Of a DNA stretch of 64,000 nucleotides, positions 42,626-52,701 are shown piece by piece. The stretch comes from Microbacterium foliorum. Its GTDB lineage: Bacteria; Actinomycetota; Actinomycetes; Actinomycetales; Microbacteriaceae. The notes beneath the pieces are model-generated. The model did no database searches. It was not told the origin of the DNA and saw only the letters and a program-made list of their open reading frames with translations. The position numbers were made by a program, and so were the translations under genes. Where the stretch lies: assembly GCF_003367705.1 (NCBI RefSeq), contig NZ_CP031425.1, positions 2,790,001 through 2,854,000 on the forward strand, in the 5' to 3' direction. Position 1 is the stretch's first letter. The number at the start of each line of letters is the position of its first letter.

Positions 42626-43243
42626 ATGACCGATACCGAGCCGCTCGGACGCCGCGAACGCAAGAAGGCAGCGACCCGCAAGAACATCTCCGACGTCGCC
42701 ACGATGATGTTCCTCGAGCGCGGCTTCGACAACGTCAGCATCCGCGAGGTCGCCGACGCCGCCGACGTCTCCCCCACCACCGTGTTCGCGCACTTCCCGC
42801 AGAAGGAGGCGCTCGTCTTCGACGAGGACGACGAGCAACGCGATCGACTGGTCTCCGCCGTCCGCGAGCGTGCGACCGGCGTGACGATCAATCAGGCGAT
42901 CCGCGACTTCTACACGGCCGAGGTGGGCGCGAACATCGACGAGCACGGCAACGACGTGGCGCGGATCTTCCTCCGCTTCCTCAACGACACTCCGGCGCTG
43001 CGGGACTACGCGGCGCGGATGTGGCTGCGGCACGAGGACGCCCTGGCCGCCGCGATCGCCGATGAGCTCGGACTGACGGCGCCGACCCCGGAGATCCGGG
43101 TGTACTCACGTTTCGTCCTGCAGATGCAGCCGCTCGTCAACGAGAACGACGACCAGCTCGGCATCCTCGATGCGGGGTTCCGCGTGCTCGAGAGCGGATG
43201 GGCCCCGGTCGAGGCGCGGATCGCCGCGAGCGACGCCCGATAG
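42626..43243 (+). CDS. TetR family regulator
   Basis: 205 residues. The N-terminal HTH is typical: MMFLERGFDNVSIREVADAA, DVSPTTVFAHFPQKEALVFD. The C-terminal ligand domain is helical and of the MftR/TetR C-terminal type. It is divergent from the MFS pump with 70 bp between starts, the classic repressor-pump pair; the ligand is presumably a pump substrate. The AraC gene follows 20 bp downstream on the same strand and may be partly co-transcribed. Confidence 0.9.
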   Translation: MTDTEPLGRRERKKAATRKNISDVATMMFLERGFDNVSIREVADAADVSPTTVFAHFPQKEALVFDEDDEQRDRLVSAVRERATGVTINQAIRDFYTAEVGANIDEHGNDVARIFLRFLNDTPALRDYAARMWLRHEDALAAAIADELGLTAPTPEIRVYSRFVLQMQPLVNENDDQLGILDAGFRVLESGWAPVEARIAASDAR

Positions 43244-43263
43244 AGCCCGACGCGGAGCGCAGA

Positions 43264-44106
43264 GTGAACTCCTATCGACAGGACGAGTGGGCCGCGAGCC
43301 CGGTGCAGCCGTCGACCATCCGAGAGCCGTACCTGATGGGCACGGGTGTCGTCACCGGCGAGGACACCGACACCCGGCCGCTCGCACCGCCGCACGCACA
43401 CCCCGATGCGATGCTCGCCTGGTGCTACCGCGGCACGGTCTGGGTGCAGCTGCAGGACGCCATGTGGCGCCTCGCCCCCGGGCAGGGCATCTGGATTCCC
43501 GCAGGCACGCCGCACACCGCTCGCCATGAGCGCGACTCGACCGGGTGCTACACCTACATCTCCGATGCGTCGCTGCTCTCGCCCATCGACGACATCGTGC
43601 AGGTGCTGGTGCCGCGAGCCGTGCAGGAGATGCTGCTGCACCTCGGAGTGAACGACATGCCCACCGCACTGCGGGTGCGCATCCAGTCGGTGCTCATCGA
43701 GATGCTGCAGCACCCGTCGACAGAGACCGCAGACGGCTGGGGCGAGGTGCCCATGCCGACCGACGAGCGGGTGAGATCGCTGGTGCAGGCCGTGCTCGCC
43801 GACCCGGGCGACCCCCGCAGTGCGCGGGATCTGTTCGGCGCTCACGGGCTTCACGAGCGCACCGTCCTGCGCATCTTCCAGAACGACGTCGGCATGTCCT
43901 TCGGCCGATGGCGGACCGGCGTGCGGATGACCCTGGCTGCACGACTGATCGTCGACGGCACACCCATCGGCGCCGCGGCGCACCGCTGCGGATACGCCAC
44001 GACCAGCGCCTTCTCCGCGGCATTCAAAGAGCGGTTCGGCTCGACCCCGCGGCAGCATGTGGCGCGCGTGCAGGCCGACCCGGTTCATCAGCGGTACTGG
44101 CGGTGA
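43264..44106 (+). CDS. AraC family regulator with N-terminal cupin
   Basis: 280 residues. The N-terminal cupin (about 25-110) has PPHAHPDAMLAWCYRG and PGQGIWIPAGTPHTARHE. The C-terminal double HTH (about 175-275) includes ARDLFGAHGLHERTVLRIFQ and AAHRCGYATTSAFSAAFKER. Just upstream of an iron-uptake operon, it probably activates that operon in response to a siderophore, as other AraC regulators do (inference). GTG at 43264 with a GGAG site. Confidence 0.88.
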   Translation: MNSYRQDEWAASPVQPSTIREPYLMGTGVVTGEDTDTRPLAPPHAHPDAMLAWCYRGTVWVQLQDAMWRLAPGQGIWIPAGTPHTARHERDSTGCYTYISDASLLSPIDDIVQVLVPRAVQEMLLHLGVNDMPTALRVRIQSVLIEMLQHPSTETADGWGEVPMPTDERVRSLVQAVLADPGDPRSARDLFGAHGLHERTVLRIFQNDVGMSFGRWRTGVRMTLAARLIVDGTPIGAAAHRCGYATTSAFSAAFKERFGSTPRQHVARVQADPVHQRYWR

Positions 44107-44199: not shown

Positions 44200-44218
44200 T
44201 TAGGGCATGCTTACCTAA
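44200..44218 (+). promoter_or_regulatory. DtxR/IdeR-type iron box
   Basis: TTAGGGCATGCTTACCTAA matches the 19-bp DtxR/IdeR operator consensus (TTAGGTTAGGCTAACCTAA) at about 14-15 positions, with both TTAGG and CCTAA ends intact. It lies 52 bp upstream of the binding-protein gene and should repress the whole operon when iron is plentiful. Confidence 0.85.
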
Positions 44219-44270: not shown

Positions 44271-45338
44271 ATGACGCACGCTTCTGCGCGCCCGAAGACC
44301 CGCCGGGGTGCCGCGCTCGTCGCGGCCGCCCTGGCCGCGACCCTCACCCTCGCGGGGTGCGCGACACCGGCCGACACCGCGGAATCCGCCTCCGCCTCGG
44401 CATCCGGCGATGCCGTGGTCATCGAGCACGCCCACGGCGAGACGGTCATCCCCGAGAAGCCGCAGCGCATCGTGACCCTCGGCTGGATGACCCCCGACAT
44501 CGTCGCCGCCCTCGGCACGAGCCCGGTCGGCATGGAAGAGGTCTGGGGCGCCGACGAGAGCGGCTACCAGCCCTGGTTCGAGGACTTCGTCACCGAGGAG
44601 TACGGAGAGACGCCCGAGATCATCCCCTTCACGGAGGACGGGCCGAACTACGAGGCGATCAAGGCGCTCAAGCCCGACCTCATCCTGAGCCTCTACTCGG
44701 GAGTCACCGACGTCGAGTACGAGCGTCTGACCGAGATCGCACCGACCGTGCCCTACATCGAGCGGGCCTGGGACCCGAGCACGTGGGAGGACATGACCCG
44801 CACGATCGGCGCGGCGATGTCGGAGGACGCGAAGGCCGAAGAGCTGATCGCCGAGACCGAGGACATGATCACCACGCTCGCCGACGAGCACCCCGAGTTC
44901 GACGACAAGACCTTCGTCTGGGGCCTGACCCTGAACGAGGGCGGCACCGACCTCGGCGTCTACCTCGAGTACGACCCGCGCGTGCGCATCACCGAGGCGC
45001 TCGGCTTCACATCGACGTCGGCGATGGACAGCTTCCTGGCCAGCGCCGAAGGCGACAACTGGTACACCGGCGTGAGCCTCGAGAAGCTCTACGACGTGCA
45101 GGCCGACCTGTTCGCCGCATGGGGCGGCAGTGCGGATGAAGGCACGTACACGGTCGAGAACAAGGTCGTCTCGCGCTGGGCGCCGATCGAGGCCGGCTCG
45201 TACGTGATCTACGCCGACGCCGCGGAGGCATCGGCGATCAGCGCACCGACCGTGCTCTCGCTGAAGTACATCCTGCCGAAGTACGTCGACGACCTCGCCG
45301 CCGCGCTGCAGGGCGAGCCGACGATCGCCGGCGAGTGA
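44271..45338 (+). CDS. Iron-siderophore ABC transporter substrate-binding lipoprotein
   Basis: 355 residues. The signal peptide ends in LTLAGC (C30 lipidated), followed by an Ala/Ser linker and the periplasmic-binding fold of the FecB/FepB type (IVTLGWMTPDIVAALGTSPV, ALKPDLILSLYSGVTDVEYE). It captures a ferric siderophore outside the membrane and hands it to the permeases encoded next. ATG at 44271 with a strong GAAGGAG site. First gene of a seven-gene operon under the iron box. The siderophore class is unknown. Confidence 0.92.
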   Translation: MTHASARPKTRRGAALVAAALAATLTLAGCATPADTAESASASASGDAVVIEHAHGETVIPEKPQRIVTLGWMTPDIVAALGTSPVGMEEVWGADESGYQPWFEDFVTEEYGETPEIIPFTEDGPNYEAIKALKPDLILSLYSGVTDVEYERLTEIAPTVPYIERAWDPSTWEDMTRTIGAAMSEDAKAEELIAETEDMITTLADEHPEFDDKTFVWGLTLNEGGTDLGVYLEYDPRVRITEALGFTSTSAMDSFLASAEGDNWYTGVSLEKLYDVQADLFAAWGGSADEGTYTVENKVVSRWAPIEAGSYVIYADAAEASAISAPTVLSLKYILPKYVDDLAAALQGEPTIAGE

Positions 45339-46420
45339 TCCGAGAGATGTCCTTGGCGACGGAAGACGGCACGGACGTCTCGAACACCGGCGCGGGGAGT
45401 CGTGCAGACGGCTCCCCGCGCCGCACCGGCACGCTCGCGGCGGGACTGATCGTGTCGGTGATCGTGCTGGGCGCCGCCGCCATCGCCTCGCTCGCGATCG
45501 GCAACCGTGCGATCGATCCGGCGACGGTCCTGCACGCGCTCTTCGCCTACGACGATGACGACCCCCTGCATCTGATGGTCCGGGAGCTGCGCGTGCCCCG
45601 CACGCTGCTCGGCATCGTCGTCGGAGCGGCCCTCGCCGTCTGCGGCGGGCTGATCCAGGCCTTCACCCGCAACCCGCTGGCCGACCCCGGCATCCTCGGG
45701 GTGAACGCGGGCGCCTCGTTCGCCGTCACGTTCGCCGTCGGGATCCTCGGGCTCACCACCCCCGGCGCCTACGTGCCCTTCGCACTGCTGGGCGCGTTCG
45801 TGCTGACGATGCTCGTCTACGCGCTGGGTTCGTTCGGGCGCTCAGGCGCCACGCCGATGAAGCTCACACTCGCGGGGGTCGCGCTCGGCGCCGCCTTCAC
45901 CGGATTCACGACCGCGATCGTGCTGCGCGACCTCGGCACGCTGCAGGTCATGCGCTTCTGGGGAGTCGGATCCATCGGCGGGCGCACCCTCGACCAGCTC
46001 GCCTGGGCGGCCCCGCTCATCGCGACCGGGCTCGTCATCGGACTGCTGTGCGCACGGTCGCTGAATGCCCTGGCACTCGGCGACGACCTGGCGCAGTCGC
46101 TCGGGGCACGCGTGCGCGTGACGCGCGTGCTCGTCATCATCGCCGTGACGGTCCTCGCCGGCACGAGCGTCGCCGCCGCCGGCCCCATCGCCTTCGTCGG
46201 CCTCATGATCCCGCACGTCGTGCGCTGGTTCACCGGACCCGATCAGCGCTGGGTCCTCACGTACTCGATGATCATCGGTCCGGCCTTCCTGCTCCTCGCC
46301 GACATCCTCGGCCGCATCGTGCTGCCCAGCGGCGAACTGCGCGTCGGCATCGTCACAGCGCTGCTCGGCGCACCGATCCTGATCATCCTCGTGCGTCGCA
46401 AGCGGGTGAGCGGACTGTGA
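45335..46420 (+). CDS. FecCD-type iron-siderophore permease
   Basis: 361 residues, about 9-10 membrane segments, FecCD family: RVPRTLLGIVVGAALAVCGG, QAFTRNPLADPGILGVNAGA and GPIAFVGLMIPHVVRW are diagnostic. One half of the membrane channel. GTG at 45335 overlaps the preceding stop by 4 bp; an ATG at 45347 is an alternative. The stop overlaps the next permease by 4 bp. Confidence 0.93.
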   Translation: MIREMSLATEDGTDVSNTGAGSRADGSPRRTGTLAAGLIVSVIVLGAAAIASLAIGNRAIDPATVLHALFAYDDDDPLHLMVRELRVPRTLLGIVVGAALAVCGGLIQAFTRNPLADPGILGVNAGASFAVTFAVGILGLTTPGAYVPFALLGAFVLTMLVYALGSFGRSGATPMKLTLAGVALGAAFTGFTTAIVLRDLGTLQVMRFWGVGSIGGRTLDQLAWAAPLIATGLVIGLLCARSLNALALGDDLAQSLGARVRVTRVLVIIAVTVLAGTSVAAAGPIAFVGLMIPHVVRWFTGPDQRWVLTYSMIIGPAFLLLADILGRIVLPSGELRVGIVTALLGAPILIILVRRKRVSGL

Positions 46421-47514
46421 GCATCGACCAGCGCCGCGCGCCGTCTTCGGACCTGCGGACCCCCGAGCTCGCCCCTGTCGATCACAGTCGTCGGCTGCTC
46501 CGCATCGAGACCTCGCGGGTCGCGGCACTCATCCCGGTGCGCGCGGTCGCAGTGAGCGCCGTCCTCGTCGCGGTGATCATCGCGGCGGGCCTCGCATCGA
46601 TGACGATCGGCGCCTACGAGGTCGACTTCCCCTCGGTCATCCGCGCGATCGTCGACCCGGCATCCGATCCCGACATCCGCCAGGTCGTCTTCGAATGGCG
46701 GCTGCCGCGGGTGCTCTTCGCGGTGCTCTGCGGGGCGGCCCTCGCTCTGGCCGGCGGCATCTTCCAGTCGCTCACCCGCAACCCGCTCGGCTCCCCCGAC
46801 ATCATCGGCTTCGGCGTCGGCGCCCAGTTCGGCGTGACCCTGATGATGGTCGTGCTCGAGCTGAACACCTACATGTTCAAGGCGGTCGGCGCTCTCGTCG
46901 GCGGGCTGATCACCGCTCTGCTCGTCTACGTTCTCGCCCACAGGAACACGCTGTCGTCGTTCCGGTTGATCATCGTGGGCATCGGCGTCTCCGCGGGCCT
47001 CGGGTCGCTCACCTCCTGGATCCTGATCTCGGTCAGCGTCGAGAAGGCCATGATGGCGGCGACCTGGGGCGCCGGCTCCCTCGCCTCCCTCGGATTCGAC
47101 CAGCTGGTTCCCGCCGCGATCGTCTTCGCGGTCGTCGCCCTCGCCTCCCTGCCCCTGAACCGCACCCTGCCGGTGCTCGAGATGGGCGATGATGCGGCCA
47201 CCGCCCTCGGCGTGAGCCCCGGACGCACGAGGCTCTCCGCGATGGTGTTCGGGGTGGCGCTGGTGGCCCTCGTCACCGCCGCCGCGGGTCCGATCTCGTT
47301 CATCGCCCTCGCCGCACCGCAGATCTCGCAGCGACTCACCCGATCGAACACGCCGATGGACACGGTCCCCGTGATGCTCACGGGTGCCGCACTCGTCGTC
47401 GTCTCGGACACCCTCGCCCAGCTCGTCGCCGTGCCGGTGGGAGTGGTGACCGTATCGGTCGGCGGGATCTACCTCGCCTGGCTGCTGGCCGCCCAGTACG
47501 CGCGCCGCTCCTGA
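46417..47514 (+). CDS. FecCD-type iron-siderophore permease
   Basis: 365 residues, second permease half: RLPRVLFAVLCGAALALAGG, QSLTRNPLGSPDIIGFGVGA and GPISFIALAAPQISQRLTRS. GTG at 46417 overlaps the first permease stop (GTGA). About 60 cytoplasmic residues precede the first membrane segment. It pairs with the product of the gene at 45335. Confidence 0.93.
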   Translation: MSIDQRRAPSSDLRTPELAPVDHSRRLLRIETSRVAALIPVRAVAVSAVLVAVIIAAGLASMTIGAYEVDFPSVIRAIVDPASDPDIRQVVFEWRLPRVLFAVLCGAALALAGGIFQSLTRNPLGSPDIIGFGVGAQFGVTLMMVVLELNTYMFKAVGALVGGLITALLVYVLAHRNTLSSFRLIIVGIGVSAGLGSLTSWILISVSVEKAMMAATWGAGSLASLGFDQLVPAAIVFAVVALASLPLNRTLPVLEMGDDAATALGVSPGRTRLSAMVFGVALVALVTAAAGPISFIALAAPQISQRLTRSNTPMDTVPVMLTGAALVVVSDTLAQLVAVPVGVVTVSVGGIYLAWLLAAQYARRS

Positions 47515-47525
47515 AAGGACCACCG

Positions 47526-48310
<785 letters not shown>

Positions 48311-48314
<4 letters not shown>

Positions 48315-49960
48315 CGACCACACCCCGCCGGCTCTTCGCGCTGGCCCTCACCTCGCAGGGACGCGGGATCACCCTGACCGCCGCGACGACGCTGCTCATC
48401 GTGCACTCGCTCACCGAGGCCGCGATCCCGGTGATCATCGGCGCCACGATCGACCGCGCCGTGCTGCCGTCAGACCCGAAGGCTCTCGCGCTGTGGCTCG
48501 GCGTGCTCCTCGGCACGTTCCTCGTGCTGACCGCGAGCTACCAGGCCGCCTCCCGTCTGATGGTCGGCGTCTACGGTTACGGCGAGCAGGCACTGCGCCA
48601 CCTCACCCTCTCGCGGATGCTGCGTCCTCGCCTCTCCCGACGGACGATGACCCCGGGCGAGGCGCTGACCTTCGTCACCTCCGACACGTATCGCGTGGCG
48701 GGCGTCGCGTGGTCGGTCGCCCAGCAGTGCGCCACGATCGCGGCGATCGCGGGCGCCGCGTTCGCGATGCTGCTGATCTCTCCGGTCACGACGCTTGTCG
48801 TGTTCGCGTCGACCGTCGCGATGATGGTCACGATGCGGATCGTCTCGCGTCCGCTCGAGCGTCGAGGTGCCGCAGAGCAGCACGCCGCGACGGAGGCGGG
48901 CGCCGTCGCTGCCGACTTCATGGCGGGGTTCCGGGTGCTCGTCGGCATCGGCGCCCGCGAGGAGGCGGTGCGCCGCTACGTCACGGCCAGTGACGCCAGC
49001 CGGATCGCGGCGACGACCGCCGGGCGATCGCTCGCCGCCTACGACGCGGTGAGCGCCGCGCTCGCGGCGGTGGCGACGACCGCGCTCGCCGGGCTGTCGG
49101 CGTGGTTCGCGGCCGAGGGCCAGATCAGCATCGGCGAGCTCGTCACCGTGCTCGGTCTCGCGCAGTTCCTCAGCGGCTCGCTCGCGTACGCCGGATCGTT
49201 CCCCTCGAACTGGATCCACAAGCTCGCCTCGGCGAAGCGGCTGGCCGCGATGATCGACGCAGACGACCTGCTCGACGCCCCGCTCACCGCGCCCCGTTCC
49301 GCGCAGCGCCGCCCCGCCGAGGCGGGTGTCGCTCTGACGTTCCGCCCCGGCCCCGAGGGCTCTGCGCACATCGATGTGCACCGCGGCGAGCTGCTCGGCA
49401 TCCGCCCCTCCGACAGTGACGAGGCCCGCACGCTCTCGCGGCTGCTGGGGCTTCGCACGCCTCCCGGCCCCGACGCGGTCGCGGTCGCCATCGACGGCGC
49501 CCTGCACGACCCGAGGCATCTGGATCCGCGAGAGTACCGCCGACGCGTCGTCGCGCTGCCCCACCGTCACACCATCGCGAGCGGCACGCTGCGCGAGGCC
49601 GTGGGAGGCCACGGAGTCACGGCCGCCCCGTCGCCCGAGATGACAGCGGTCGCCGCTCTGCACGACACGATCACCGAGGCCGGCGGATGGGACGCCCAGG
49701 TCGGAGAGGCCGGCAGACGGCTGTCGGGGGGCCAGCGTCAGCGCATCGGGATCGCGCGTGCACTGCACACCGACGCCGACGTGCTGGTGCTCGACGAGCC
49801 GACCTCGGCCGTCGACGCCATCACCGAGGCGCACATCGCCGCAGCGCTGGCCGCGCTCGACCGGACGACCATCGTGATCAGCACGTCACCGGTGCTCCTC
49901 GGCGCCTGCGATCGGGTCATCGACCTGTCCCCCGAAGGAACGGATGCCGCCCATGGCTGA
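48311..49960 (+). CDS. ABC half-transporter 1, degenerate Walker A, intact signature
   Basis: 549 residues: six membrane helices (about 1-300) and an NBD (about 335-549). The Walker A region reads [11 protein letters not shown] (363-373) without Gly-Lys-Ser/Thr, and the H-loop position is S524 in IVISTSP. The signature [10 protein letters not shown] (471-480) and Walker B VLVLDE (491-496) are intact. It would pair with the next gene's product, IrtAB/YbtPQ-like. Position in an iron-box operon beside an SIP reductase suggests ferric-siderophore uptake rather than drug export. ATGA overlap with the gene before. Confidence 0.88.
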
Positions 49961-51815
49961 GGCCCCGACCCCGCTGCTGCCGATCGCGACGGGCGCCAGG
50001 GTGCGCGTCGTCATCGCGACGCTGCTGCGCCGCCACCGCGGACGGGCGGTGGCGACCGCCGCACTGTTCCTCGTCGCGTCCGCACTGGGAGTGGTGCTGC
50101 CCGCGTGCCTCGGCCGCATCGTCGACGCGGTCTCGAACGATGCGGGCATCGCGGTCGTCGCCGGCTGGGTCGTCGCCGCGGGAGCAGGCGCCGTCGGCGC
50201 CGCCCTGGCGATGCTCTGGGCCGCTCGTGTGCTGGCCGGACTGGTTCAGGATGTGCTGGCCGACCTGCGTGAAGACGTGTTCGCCTCGGCGATGCGCCTG
50301 CCGGTGAGCACGGTCGATGACGGAGAGACGGCCGACCTGCTCTCCCGGGTGACCGGTGACATCGATGCGGTGGCCGAGGCGGGCGGCAACGTCGTACCGG
50401 TGCTGCTCTCCGCGGGGTTCGCGATCGGGGTCTCCGTGATCGCACTGACGGCCCTCGATCCGTGGCTCGCTCTCGCGGGAGTCGCGAGCGTGCCGTTCTA
50501 CGTGCTGGGCACCCGGGCGTTCCTCCGTCGCTCTCGTGTGGTCTTCCGTGAGGTGCGCGTGCGCGAGGCCGCCCGCAGCCAGGCCGTGCTCGAGGCGGTG
50601 GAGGGCATCGAGACGCTCACCGCTCTCGGCGAGCAGGACCACGCGCTCGAACGGGTCAGCACGCGGGCGGAGAACTCGATCCGGATGCAGGTCGAGGGCG
50701 TGCGGGTGCGCAACCGGCTGTTCCGCTGGATCAACGGCGGCGAGCTGGTCGGCCTCGGCGCCATCCTCGCGACGGGGTTCCTGCTGCACGCGAGCGGCGC
50801 GGTCACCGTCGGCATGGTCACCACCGCGGCGCTGCTGTTCCATCGGCTGTTCGATCCGGTGGGTCAGCTCATCTTCGGTCTCGACGACATCCAGCGCGCG
50901 GCGATCGGACTTGCCAGGCTCGTGGGGGTCATCGACCTCGCTCCGGCGGCGCCGCGGGGCGCACCGCGCGGTGCCGGCGACAGCCGACCCGCCGCTCGCC
51001 AGGCGGTCGGCATCGAGCTGCGCGATGTCGCCTACCGGTACCCGACGACGGGGCGCGGCATCAGCGACGTCACGCTGAGCATCGCCCCTGGCACGACCAC
51101 CGCGCTCGTCGGATCCTCGGGTTCGGGCAAGAGCACCCTCGCTCGGGTCATCGCCGGGCACCACCCGCCGACTTCTGGCGTCGTGAACCTCGTACCCGAG
51201 ACGACCGTCCCGTACTACCTGTCGCAGGAGCTGCACCTGTTCCGCGGCACGATCGCCGACAACCTGCGCCTGGTCGCCCCCACGGCGACCCACGACCAGA
51301 TGGTCGCCGCGCTCATCGCCGTCGGAGCCGAATGGGCGATCACCTCGCTGGGCAGATCGCCGGGCACCTCATCGTCTTCCACCCACAGCGGCACCGACAC
51401 CGGCATCGCCATGGACGAGGGACGCATCCAGCAGCTGGCCATCGCGCGGGCGCTGCTCGCGGACCCCGCCGTCGTGATCCTCGATGAGGCGACGGCCGAT
51501 GTCGGGCTCCCCCATCGCGACGCCGTCGAAGCGGCGATCCGGGTGCTGCGCAGGGATCGCACGACCGTGCTCATCGCGCATCGGCTGGAGCCGGTGTCGA
51601 CCGCCGACCAGATCATCGTGTTCGCCGAGGGGCGCGCGGCCCAGCGCGGCACGCACCGTGACCTGCTGGCGGTCGACGGGCTCTACCGCCGCTTCTGGCT
51701 CGCGCAGACGGAAGCCCCGCAGCCCGATCGCCATCCGAACGCACATCGCCACCCGAACGAGCATCACCACCCGAACGCACATCGCCACCCGAACGAGCAG
51801 AGAGAGACCCCGTGA
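49944..51815 (+). CDS. ABC half-transporter 2, intact Walker A, degenerate signature, His-rich tail
   Basis: 623 residues: six membrane helices (about 20-310) and an NBD (about 355-590). Walker A GSSGSGKS (390-397), Q428, Walker B VVILDE (510-515) and H546 are intact, but the LSGGQ signature is replaced by AMDEGRIQQ (489-497) and the D-loop is ADVG. The C-terminus has four HPN-containing repeats rich in histidine (about 596-617) that could bind metal or haem. It complements half-transporter 1. Start ATG 49944 (AAGGAA site), 17 bp inside the previous gene. Confidence 0.88.
51726..51797 (+). repeat. Four 18-bp coding repeats (His-rich tail)
   Basis: Units at 51726-51743, 51744-51761, 51762-51779 and 51780-51797 encode [18 protein letters not shown] and HRHPNE. 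Units 2 and 4 are identical over all 18 bp. Confidence 0.9.
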
Positions 51816-52701
51816 GCATCCACCGCGGCACCGTCACCCACACCACCGCCCTGACCCCGATGCTCACCCGCGTCACTCTCGGCGGCGCCGATGTCGCCCA
51901 GTTCCTCAGCACGGGCATCGGCGACGAGTACGTGCGCGTCTTCTTCCCCACGGCGACGACCCGACGGTCGTCTCGCTGCCCGTACCGGCCGGCGACTGGT
52001 GGGAGACCCCGGATGGAGCGCCCCAGGCCCCGATGCGCACGTACACGATCAGCGGCGTGCGCCCGGATGCCGGTGAACTCGACATCGACTTCGTGATCCA
52101 CAGCTCGGGGGTCGCAGGGCCGTGGGCGGCGCGCGCCGAGCCAGGCCATGTGCTCGGACTCACCTCGCCGACAGGGCTGTACTCGCCGCCTGCGGGCATC
52201 ACCTGGCAGGTGCTCGTCTGCGATCTCACAGGACTTCCCGCGGCAGCGCGCATCGCTGCGGACACTGCGGCCGGCGTCCGCACCCGGATCGTCGTCGAAG
52301 TGCCGCCAGAGCACGATCGGGGTGCCTTCGACTTCGGCTCGGAGGCCGACGTCACCTGGGTGGTCGGCGGCAACGGTCACGGCCCCAGTGCGCTCGGTCA
52401 GCTGGTGCGGGGCATCGTCGACGAACGACTCTCGCTCGACGAGGGATACGTCTGGGTCGCGGGCGAGACGGTCGCCCTGCGAGACGCCCGCAAATACCTC
52501 AGGCGCGAGCTCGGCCTCGCCGCGACCCGGTTCAAGGTCGTCGGATACTGGACCCCCATCGACTCGTGGGACACGAAGTTCGCAGCCCTGCCCGAGTCGG
52601 TGCGCAGGGATCTCGACGCGACCTGGACGGAGAGCGAGGGCGCCGAGCCCGAGGACGTGCAGGTGCGGTTCGAGGAACGGCTGGATGCGCTCGGCCTCTG
52701 A
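51812..52701 (+). pseudogene. Siderophore-interacting (FAD) reductase gene, broken by one frameshift
   Basis: The GTG at 51812 overlaps the transporter stop (GTGA). The product starts [20 protein letters not shown] and runs to GDEYVRVFFPT near 51951. There the matching frame changes: the rest, DDPTVVSLPVPAGDWW, then APMRTYTISGVRP (FAD motif R-x-Y-T) to VGYWTPIDSWDTKFAALPES, is in another frame to 52701. One added base (for example a C in the GGC-GAC junction) restores a normal SIP protein of about 296 residues. It would reduce the ferric siderophore in the cytoplasm. Either a real mutation or a sequence error. Confidence 0.8.

Follow-up and report, generated by a model that had tools for sequence, protein, structure and literature searches.

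The window analysed here is a 64-kb stretch of a 3.57-Mb genome whose nearest named relatives are Microbacterium. It carries two overlapping genes coding for ATP-binding cassette (ABC) half-transporters, H1 and H2, whose nucleotide-handling motifs are lost in a complementary manner: what is missing in one half is kept in the other. H1 and H2 probably form an obligate heterodimer in which a single ATP site works and which transports a siderophore, this transport being likelier directed out of the cell than into it. The two proteins and their motifs are located as follows.

48311..49960, + strand: H1 half-transporter, 549 residues (PF00664 and PF00005; predicted local distance difference test score, pLDDT, of the model 88.3)
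49400..49429, + strand: place of Walker A in H1, residues 364-373, acidic, P-loop Gly and Lys missing (alignment, conservation, model)
49562..49564, + strand: H1 H418, where the Q-loop Gln is expected (alignment)
49721..49735, + strand: H1 signature LSGGQ, intact, residues 471-475 (motif reading)
49805..49816, + strand: H1 D-loop SAVD, intact, residues 499-502 (motif reading)
49883..49885, + strand: H1 T525, where the H-loop His is expected, in VISTSP (alignment)
49944..51815, + strand: H2 half-transporter, 623 residues (PF00664 and PF00005; pLDDT of the predicted model 86.9)
51111..51137, + strand: H2 Walker A GSSGSGKST, intact, residues 390-398 with K396 (motif reading)
51225..51227, + strand: H2 Q-loop Q428 (motif reading)
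51411..51425, + strand: place of the signature in H2, MDEGR, residues 490-494 (motif reading, alignment)
51471..51488, + strand: H2 Walker B VVILDE, residues 510-515 (motif reading)
51495..51509, + strand: H2 degenerate D-loop ADVGL, residues 518-522 (motif reading, alignment)
51579..51581, + strand: H2 H-loop H546 (motif reading)

Both halves are type IV (exporter-fold) ABC half-transporters in which PF00664 is followed by PF00005, each above its cut-off. The fold matches of H1 span the whole chain, and exporters of the MsRv1273c/72c, TM287/288 and TmrAB type are among its closest structures; in sequence, all solved structures are distant, and a P-glycoprotein is the best match both for H1 by itself and for the profile. 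The initial annotation had described H1 as a half that lacks Walker A and the H-loop histidine while keeping LSGGQ, and this is borne out by the residues read and aligned. The Walker A place starts at G363 and the canonical GxxxxGK[ST] is missing, whereas the signature continues as LSGGQRQR (471-478) and Walker B is found as LDEP. The alignment adds to that description the loss of the Q-loop Gln. In the predicted structures, three residues link strand 361-365 to helix 369-379 of H1, and five link strand 385-390 to helix 396-403 of H2. The reading of H2, in which Walker A, the Q-loop, Walker B (in the context LDEAT) and the H-loop are kept while the signature and the D-loop are lost, is true for the H2 of the window; across the family, the D-loop is retained in 19 of 63 H2 sequences and its loss is consequently not general. 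A tandem repeat of 18/36 bases (51727-51799) encodes a His-rich C-terminal tail of H2, which is variable among relatives and of low confidence in the predicted model.

The distribution of the motifs was followed in close and distant relatives. The close sets contain the window's H1 with 120 listed matches and its H2 with 119 (the best 120 per protein search). For the survey, a profile built from 11 H1 sequences was searched against 296 genomes of the phylum; five candidates at most were scored per genome and matches were taken at E <= 1e-60, so that the counts are lower bounds. At least 35 strong matches were obtained in at least 22 of the 296 genomes, with 383 to 703 bits, the next ones scoring 324 and below. 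All strong matches except the window's own (34 of 35) were fetched together with six regions that had come up when 58 relatives were searched, and motifs were called on 149 sequences from these fetched regions and the named related loci. Rows were labelled as H1, H2 or control (14 rows) by profile score. Near-duplicates were retained and rows below 200 bits dropped, and a row entered a tally only if it contained the segment concerned.

In this surveyed set, Walker A was found in 0/68 H1 sequences, window included, and the H-loop His in 0/67, while SGGQ and the D-loop were each present in 67/67. The H2 sequences mirror this pattern, with Walker A in 63/63, the Walker B DE in 63/63, the H-loop His in 62/62 and SGG in 0/62. 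Among the matches listed in the close sets, SGGQRQR is carried by 121/121 H1 and Walker A by 120/120 H2; DEGR stands in 120/120 H2, none of which has the LSGGQ pattern (0/120). Of the matches listed for a Streptomyces-type H1 encoded beside a nonribosomal peptide synthetase (NRPS) gene, 120 close relatives at >=87% identity, all have LSGGQ and none has Walker A. A Walker A hidden at a shifted position, which would have contradicted the initial annotation, was also looked for: G....GK[ST] occurs in 0/120 of the listed close H1 relatives and in 0/120 of the listed Streptomyces-H1 relatives. In the 14 other halves of the same alignment (215-255 bits), Walker A and the H-loop His were both found in 14/14 and SGG in nine, the remaining five reading SAGQ. 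A larger control of other half-transporters gave Walker A in 35/35 rows and the H-loop His in 27/28 rows reaching it. The Q-loop regular expression was apparently out of register for H1 (8/68 matched), and the statement on the Q-loop rests on the alignments. Altogether, the survey of homologous pairs that the initial annotation had proposed found co-loss of Walker A and signature in every pair with both segments readable. Complementary motif loss is a family trait and not local decay; chance or decay of the motifs was rejected on their conservation in close and surveyed relatives.

Some loci show further variation. From L089 to L128, the DEP of H1 Walker B is replaced by VEP in some sequences and by HDP or HEP in others, Walker B of H1 being variable whereas its signature and D-loop are constant. 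In L113, L116, L117, L119 and L120, two half-transporter pairs lie in tandem, one complementary-degenerate and one with Walker A in both halves; the fourth half of L119 is in two pieces.

The relationship between the two halves was examined in a tree. Its set of 133 rows was obtained from the 149 sequences by leaving out L092, 15 near-duplicate loci and six pieces that were partial or frame-broken, and by adding other halves. The tree itself uses 74 rows with the motif columns excluded; it was made by a quick method, is unrooted and is supported by the Shimodaira-Hasegawa-like approximate likelihood ratio test only. A branch of support 100 sets off the H1 rows, and likewise the H2 rows, as a single group; in this unrooted quick tree their subgroups split alike, as mirror images. 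The distances among H1 and among H2 correlate with r = 0.96 over 46 loci, a value reached by 0 of 2000 permutations (the largest gave 0.18), although some of this correlation is expected from shared species history alone. The motif co-loss can, on this sequence tree, be traced to one ancestor. Since the tree needs one origin only, the co-loss is not an independently repeated correlation, and independent repeated co-loss was rejected. The simplest order of events would be a loss of Walker A and signature first and of the D-loop later.

The initial annotation had concluded from the motifs that one site is fully canonical and the other degenerate, and the aligned motifs agree. H1 and H2 would pair into an obligate heterodimer of type IV fold. 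In its working site, the Walker A, Q-loop, Walker B and H-loop of H2 would meet the signature and D-loop of H1, whereas the opposite site combines the loss of Walker A, Q and H in H1 with that of signature and D-loop in H2. Devoid of P-loop and signature, this opposite site should bind no ATP. An H1 homodimer would have signatures without Walker A and an H2 homodimer Walker A without signature, so that neither could build a site alone; homodimers were accordingly rejected, each presumably missing one half of every site. Direct protein contact probably stands in for the ATP that acts as glue in other asymmetric transporters. For the window's lineage, the two sides of this contact would be H418 with DSD, the acidic loop of H1, and DEGR with ADVG of H2; no ATP would be bound by H1, and its acids would meet R494 of H2.

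The residues of the degenerate site are strongly conserved in the close sets. D491, E492, G493, R494, A518, D519 and G521 of H2 are invariant in 120 close sequences, with L522 in 120/120 and V520 in 116/120; in close H1 sequences, H418 is present in 121/121, D368 in 117 and D370 in 101. Invariant columns make up 27% of H1 and 39% of H2 in these sets, a share high enough for the invariance of dead-site residues to be unexceptional by itself. In the wide alignments, several positions still count among the more conserved columns, namely H418 (His in 36/40), S526 (38/40) and P527 (37/40) of H1 and Q496 (39/39) and G521 (33/38) of H2. The H2 signature place outside the window's lineage mostly resembles LTPAQAQQ. 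Metal binding at the dead site by the acids and H418 was considered, with evidence neither way.

A tentative proposal is that this actinobacterial family consists of transporters that naturally run on one ATP: the degenerate site would bind no nucleotide, and a contact between the nucleotide-binding domains (NBDs) would mechanically replace the occluded ATP. In the window's lineage, the contact would take the form of a salt-bridge latch joining the acidic loop and H418 of H1 to DEGR and ADVG of H2, and other lineages would use other residues. A less likely explanation is that H1/H2 is an asymmetric exporter of the ordinary kind, as TM287/288 and MsRv1273c/72c are, in which ATP still glues the degenerate site and the changes have merely gone further. 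It has the same fold on its side as well as the spectrum of degeneracy seen in control rows (LDDATSAVDP, a changed Q-loop, Walker A kept), and the part of the Pdr5 account available describes ATP binding in a heavily degenerate site (PMC8421411). Against it stand the absence of GK[ST] at the Walker A place in 68/68 H1, the short connecting loop in the H1 model and the acids occupying the phosphate place in the window's lineage. Most catalytic residues of H1 are lost and single frame-broken copies occur in relatives (H1 in L127, 6054-7550; H2 in L009, 10673-12371), as would be expected if H1 were decaying or without function and had been retained by chance next to an H2 that works. This explanation is nevertheless very improbable: the 40-row H1 alignment shows no variation in SGGQRQR or in the Asp of the D-loop, the pairing of H1 with H2 holds across the family and H2, without a signature, cannot work with itself.

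Comparison with known transporters places the pair more precisely. By its motifs it resembles MsRv1273c/72c, TM287/288 and TmrAB, type IV heterodimers in which a consensus site is paired with a degenerate one. The degenerate site of TM287/288 and TmrAB keeps Walker A and binds ATP. That of MsRv1273c/72c keeps Walker A and binds ATP in most states according to the sections of its description available (PMC12038006); one ADP-bound state has the degenerate site distorted and ATP-free, and the authors discuss the ATP of this site as a glue (PMC12038006). In the degenerate site of H1/H2, by contrast, Walker A is missing. The likeness to yeast Pdr5 and the fungal PDR transporters is of another kind: as far as their available descriptions go, one canonical site is there combined with another degenerate in nearly all motifs, by a complementary split. 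Pdr5 is a single full-length polypeptide and belongs to a different ABC class; in H1/H2 the P-loop is gone, the D-loop of the window's pair is lost, two bacterial genes are involved and, unlike in Pdr5, the transmembrane domain precedes the NBD. In the accessible portion of the Pdr5 work, NBD1 retains the signature while NBD2 has LNVEQ there and retains the catalytic motifs, and the deviant site holds ATP with its D-loop kept (PMC8421411). The judgement of the initial annotation that the pair is more extreme than usual asymmetric exporters thus stands against the other halves of the alignment (the 35/35 Walker A and 27/28 H-loop His given above) and, on the text available, against MsRv1273c/72c with ATP in the degenerate site in most states (PMC12038006). 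It holds less well against Pdr5, in which the excerpted account has all motifs except the D-loop degenerate on one side (PMC8421411).

H1 and H2 belong to an operon in the order binding protein, FecD, FecC, FepC, H1, H2 and siderophore-interacting protein (SIP), preceded by the gene of an AraC-type regulator. The genes overlap by four bases at FepC/H1, 17 at H1/H2 and four at H2/SIP start.

43198..44106, + strand: AraC-family regulator adjoining the operon (PF12833), in the same position in related loci
44200..44218, + strand: DtxR/IdeR-type iron box (TTAGGGCATGCTTACCTAA), ending 52 bases before the binding-protein gene
44271..45338, + strand: Fe-siderophore-type binding protein (Peripla_BP_2, PF01497)
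45335..46420, + strand: FecCD-family permease 1 (PF01032)
46420..47514, + strand: FecCD-family permease 2, start codon tentative (PF01032)
47526..48314, + strand: FepC-like ATPase (PF00005; best NCBIfam match an iron-enterobactin ATPase, below its cut-off)
51812..52096, + strand: 5' reading-frame piece of the SIP gene (FAD_binding_9, PF08021, residues 7-60)
51949..52701, + strand: 3' reading-frame piece of the SIP gene (PF08021 and PF04954 SIP), in a frame unlike that of the 5' piece

The iron box was searched for with a DtxR/IdeR consensus. It is the single match in the window at <=3 mismatches, and 100 shuffles gave 0 matches. Boxes with one to three mismatches lie upstream of the binding-protein gene in 24/25 related loci carrying that gene; at <=4 mismatches, these 25 loci have 50 matches in 945,250 positions on both strands. 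The exception is L034, whose operon is rearranged and has a 1-mismatch box between the divergent AraC and H1 genes. The gene order from AraC to H2 recurs in 23/27 named related loci, with SIP next in 19 of these 23; L024 is cut by a contig end. With its binding protein, FecCD permeases, FepC ATPase and iron-repressor box, the operon has the genetic make-up of an iron-regulated siderophore uptake operon. Four other SIP-like genes are found in the window genome (G000:C1 290948, 361877, 485187, 58007), those at 290948 and 361877 adjoining FecCD- and FepC-like genes and that at 485187 a FepC-like gene.

The neighbouring importer, SIP and iron box, together with the NRPS or iron-repressor genes adjoining distant members, suggest a role in siderophore handling. 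The pair of the window's lineage would serve the iron-regulated uptake operon beside the FecCD-type import and SIP genes, its likeliest job being to pump the iron-free siderophore back out after iron release, i.e. recycling. Relatives beside Streptomyces NRPS genes would secrete the cell's own siderophore. One Streptomyces-type locus, L107/L129, has on one strand an H1-like gene whose product lacks Walker A, then an NRPS gene, an H2-like gene and the gene of an ABC ATPase. The pair of this locus resembles CchG/CchI of the coelichelin cluster, and L107 may be that cluster itself; from the annotated part of the NRPS to the H2-like gene, some 4 kb of L107/L129 lies outside the annotation. CchG/CchI lie in a synthesis cluster, whereas no match to IucA/IucC (PF04183) or to the NRPS Condensation domain (PF00668), which cover two synthesis routes, was found in the window genome. 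The latter may therefore use foreign siderophores.

Release of iron-free siderophore is favoured over import of the IrtAB kind, because an importer is already present in the operon; the former stands at about even chances and the latter clearly below. Like IrtAB of mycobacteria and YbtPQ, H1/H2 would be an exporter-fold heterodimer tied to siderophore uptake and linked to SIP function. In IrtA, however, the SIP domain is built in, while in the H1/H2 operon SIP has a gene of its own, which follows H2. IrtAB and YbtPQ systems are not known to include a FecCD importer. Membership of IrtAB was rejected, no SIP domain being fused to the transporter. An importer of this type, in which the heterodimer takes the Fe-siderophore in and the separate SIP acts as the fused domain of IrtA does, is a less likely alternative. 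IrtAB also binds ATP in both sites according to the available part of its description (PMC10246721).

Several observations weigh against the interpretation proposed here. The direction of transport is unreadable from sequence, since IrtAB, as far as its available description goes, shares the fold yet imports (PMC10246721). The Walker B DE is found in only 38/67 surveyed H1 sequences, compatible with a possible weak nucleotide contact. The contact residues are limited to a lineage: in the wide alignments, D491 is kept in 21/38 and R494 in 21/39 H2 (Gln in 16), and D370 of the acidic loop in 16/40 H1. As D491, R494 and D370 are not kept beyond the window's lineage, the DSD-DEGR latch would be a trait of that lineage only, and the one-ATP proposal was judged slightly less probable for this reason. 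The window SIP gene (51812-52701) is split over two frames near 51950 and is in a single frame in relatives; the break may be genuine or an error of the assembly. A SIP match is absent in L009, L010, L011 and L027 despite sufficient sequence downstream of H2, and among the 27 named loci, L009 and L027 have the pair with no uptake genes seen nearby. Finally, genes for a binding protein, FecCD or SIP lie nearby in 11/19 regions of the group that lost the H2 D-loop and in 0/20 regions of the group that kept it (Fisher p = 4.5e-5 over the 40 fetched regions, kinship uncorrected; L107 and L111, with the H2 D-loop unread, were grouped by H1, and L092 was left unassigned). Siderophore work would then be a trait of the group containing the window and not of the whole family. 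The D-loop-kept group has Gfo/Idh oxidoreductases and M4 peptidases among its neighbours; M4 metallopeptidases are encoded close to L113 and L120, and a TNT-domain protein (PF14021; L120 3012-3815) is encoded near a D-loop-keeping pair.

Complementary dead motifs were already known from Pdr5, whose dead site still holds ATP; in H1/H2 the P-loop itself is gone. A description of the H1/H2 family was not found in the open-access literature searched, partly with narrow terms, which leaves room for one in print. The role of the degenerate site and the need for an ATP glue are called unsettled in the part of the MsRv1273c/72c report available (PMC12038006). The present family seems to have dropped the second ATP altogether, yet it persists in many genomes. 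Set beside ordinary asymmetric pairs, it would offer a direct test of the glue model, and the groups with and without the H2 D-loop provide a ready-made second comparison. For environmental Microbacteriaceae, the pair is a candidate siderophore recycling pump.

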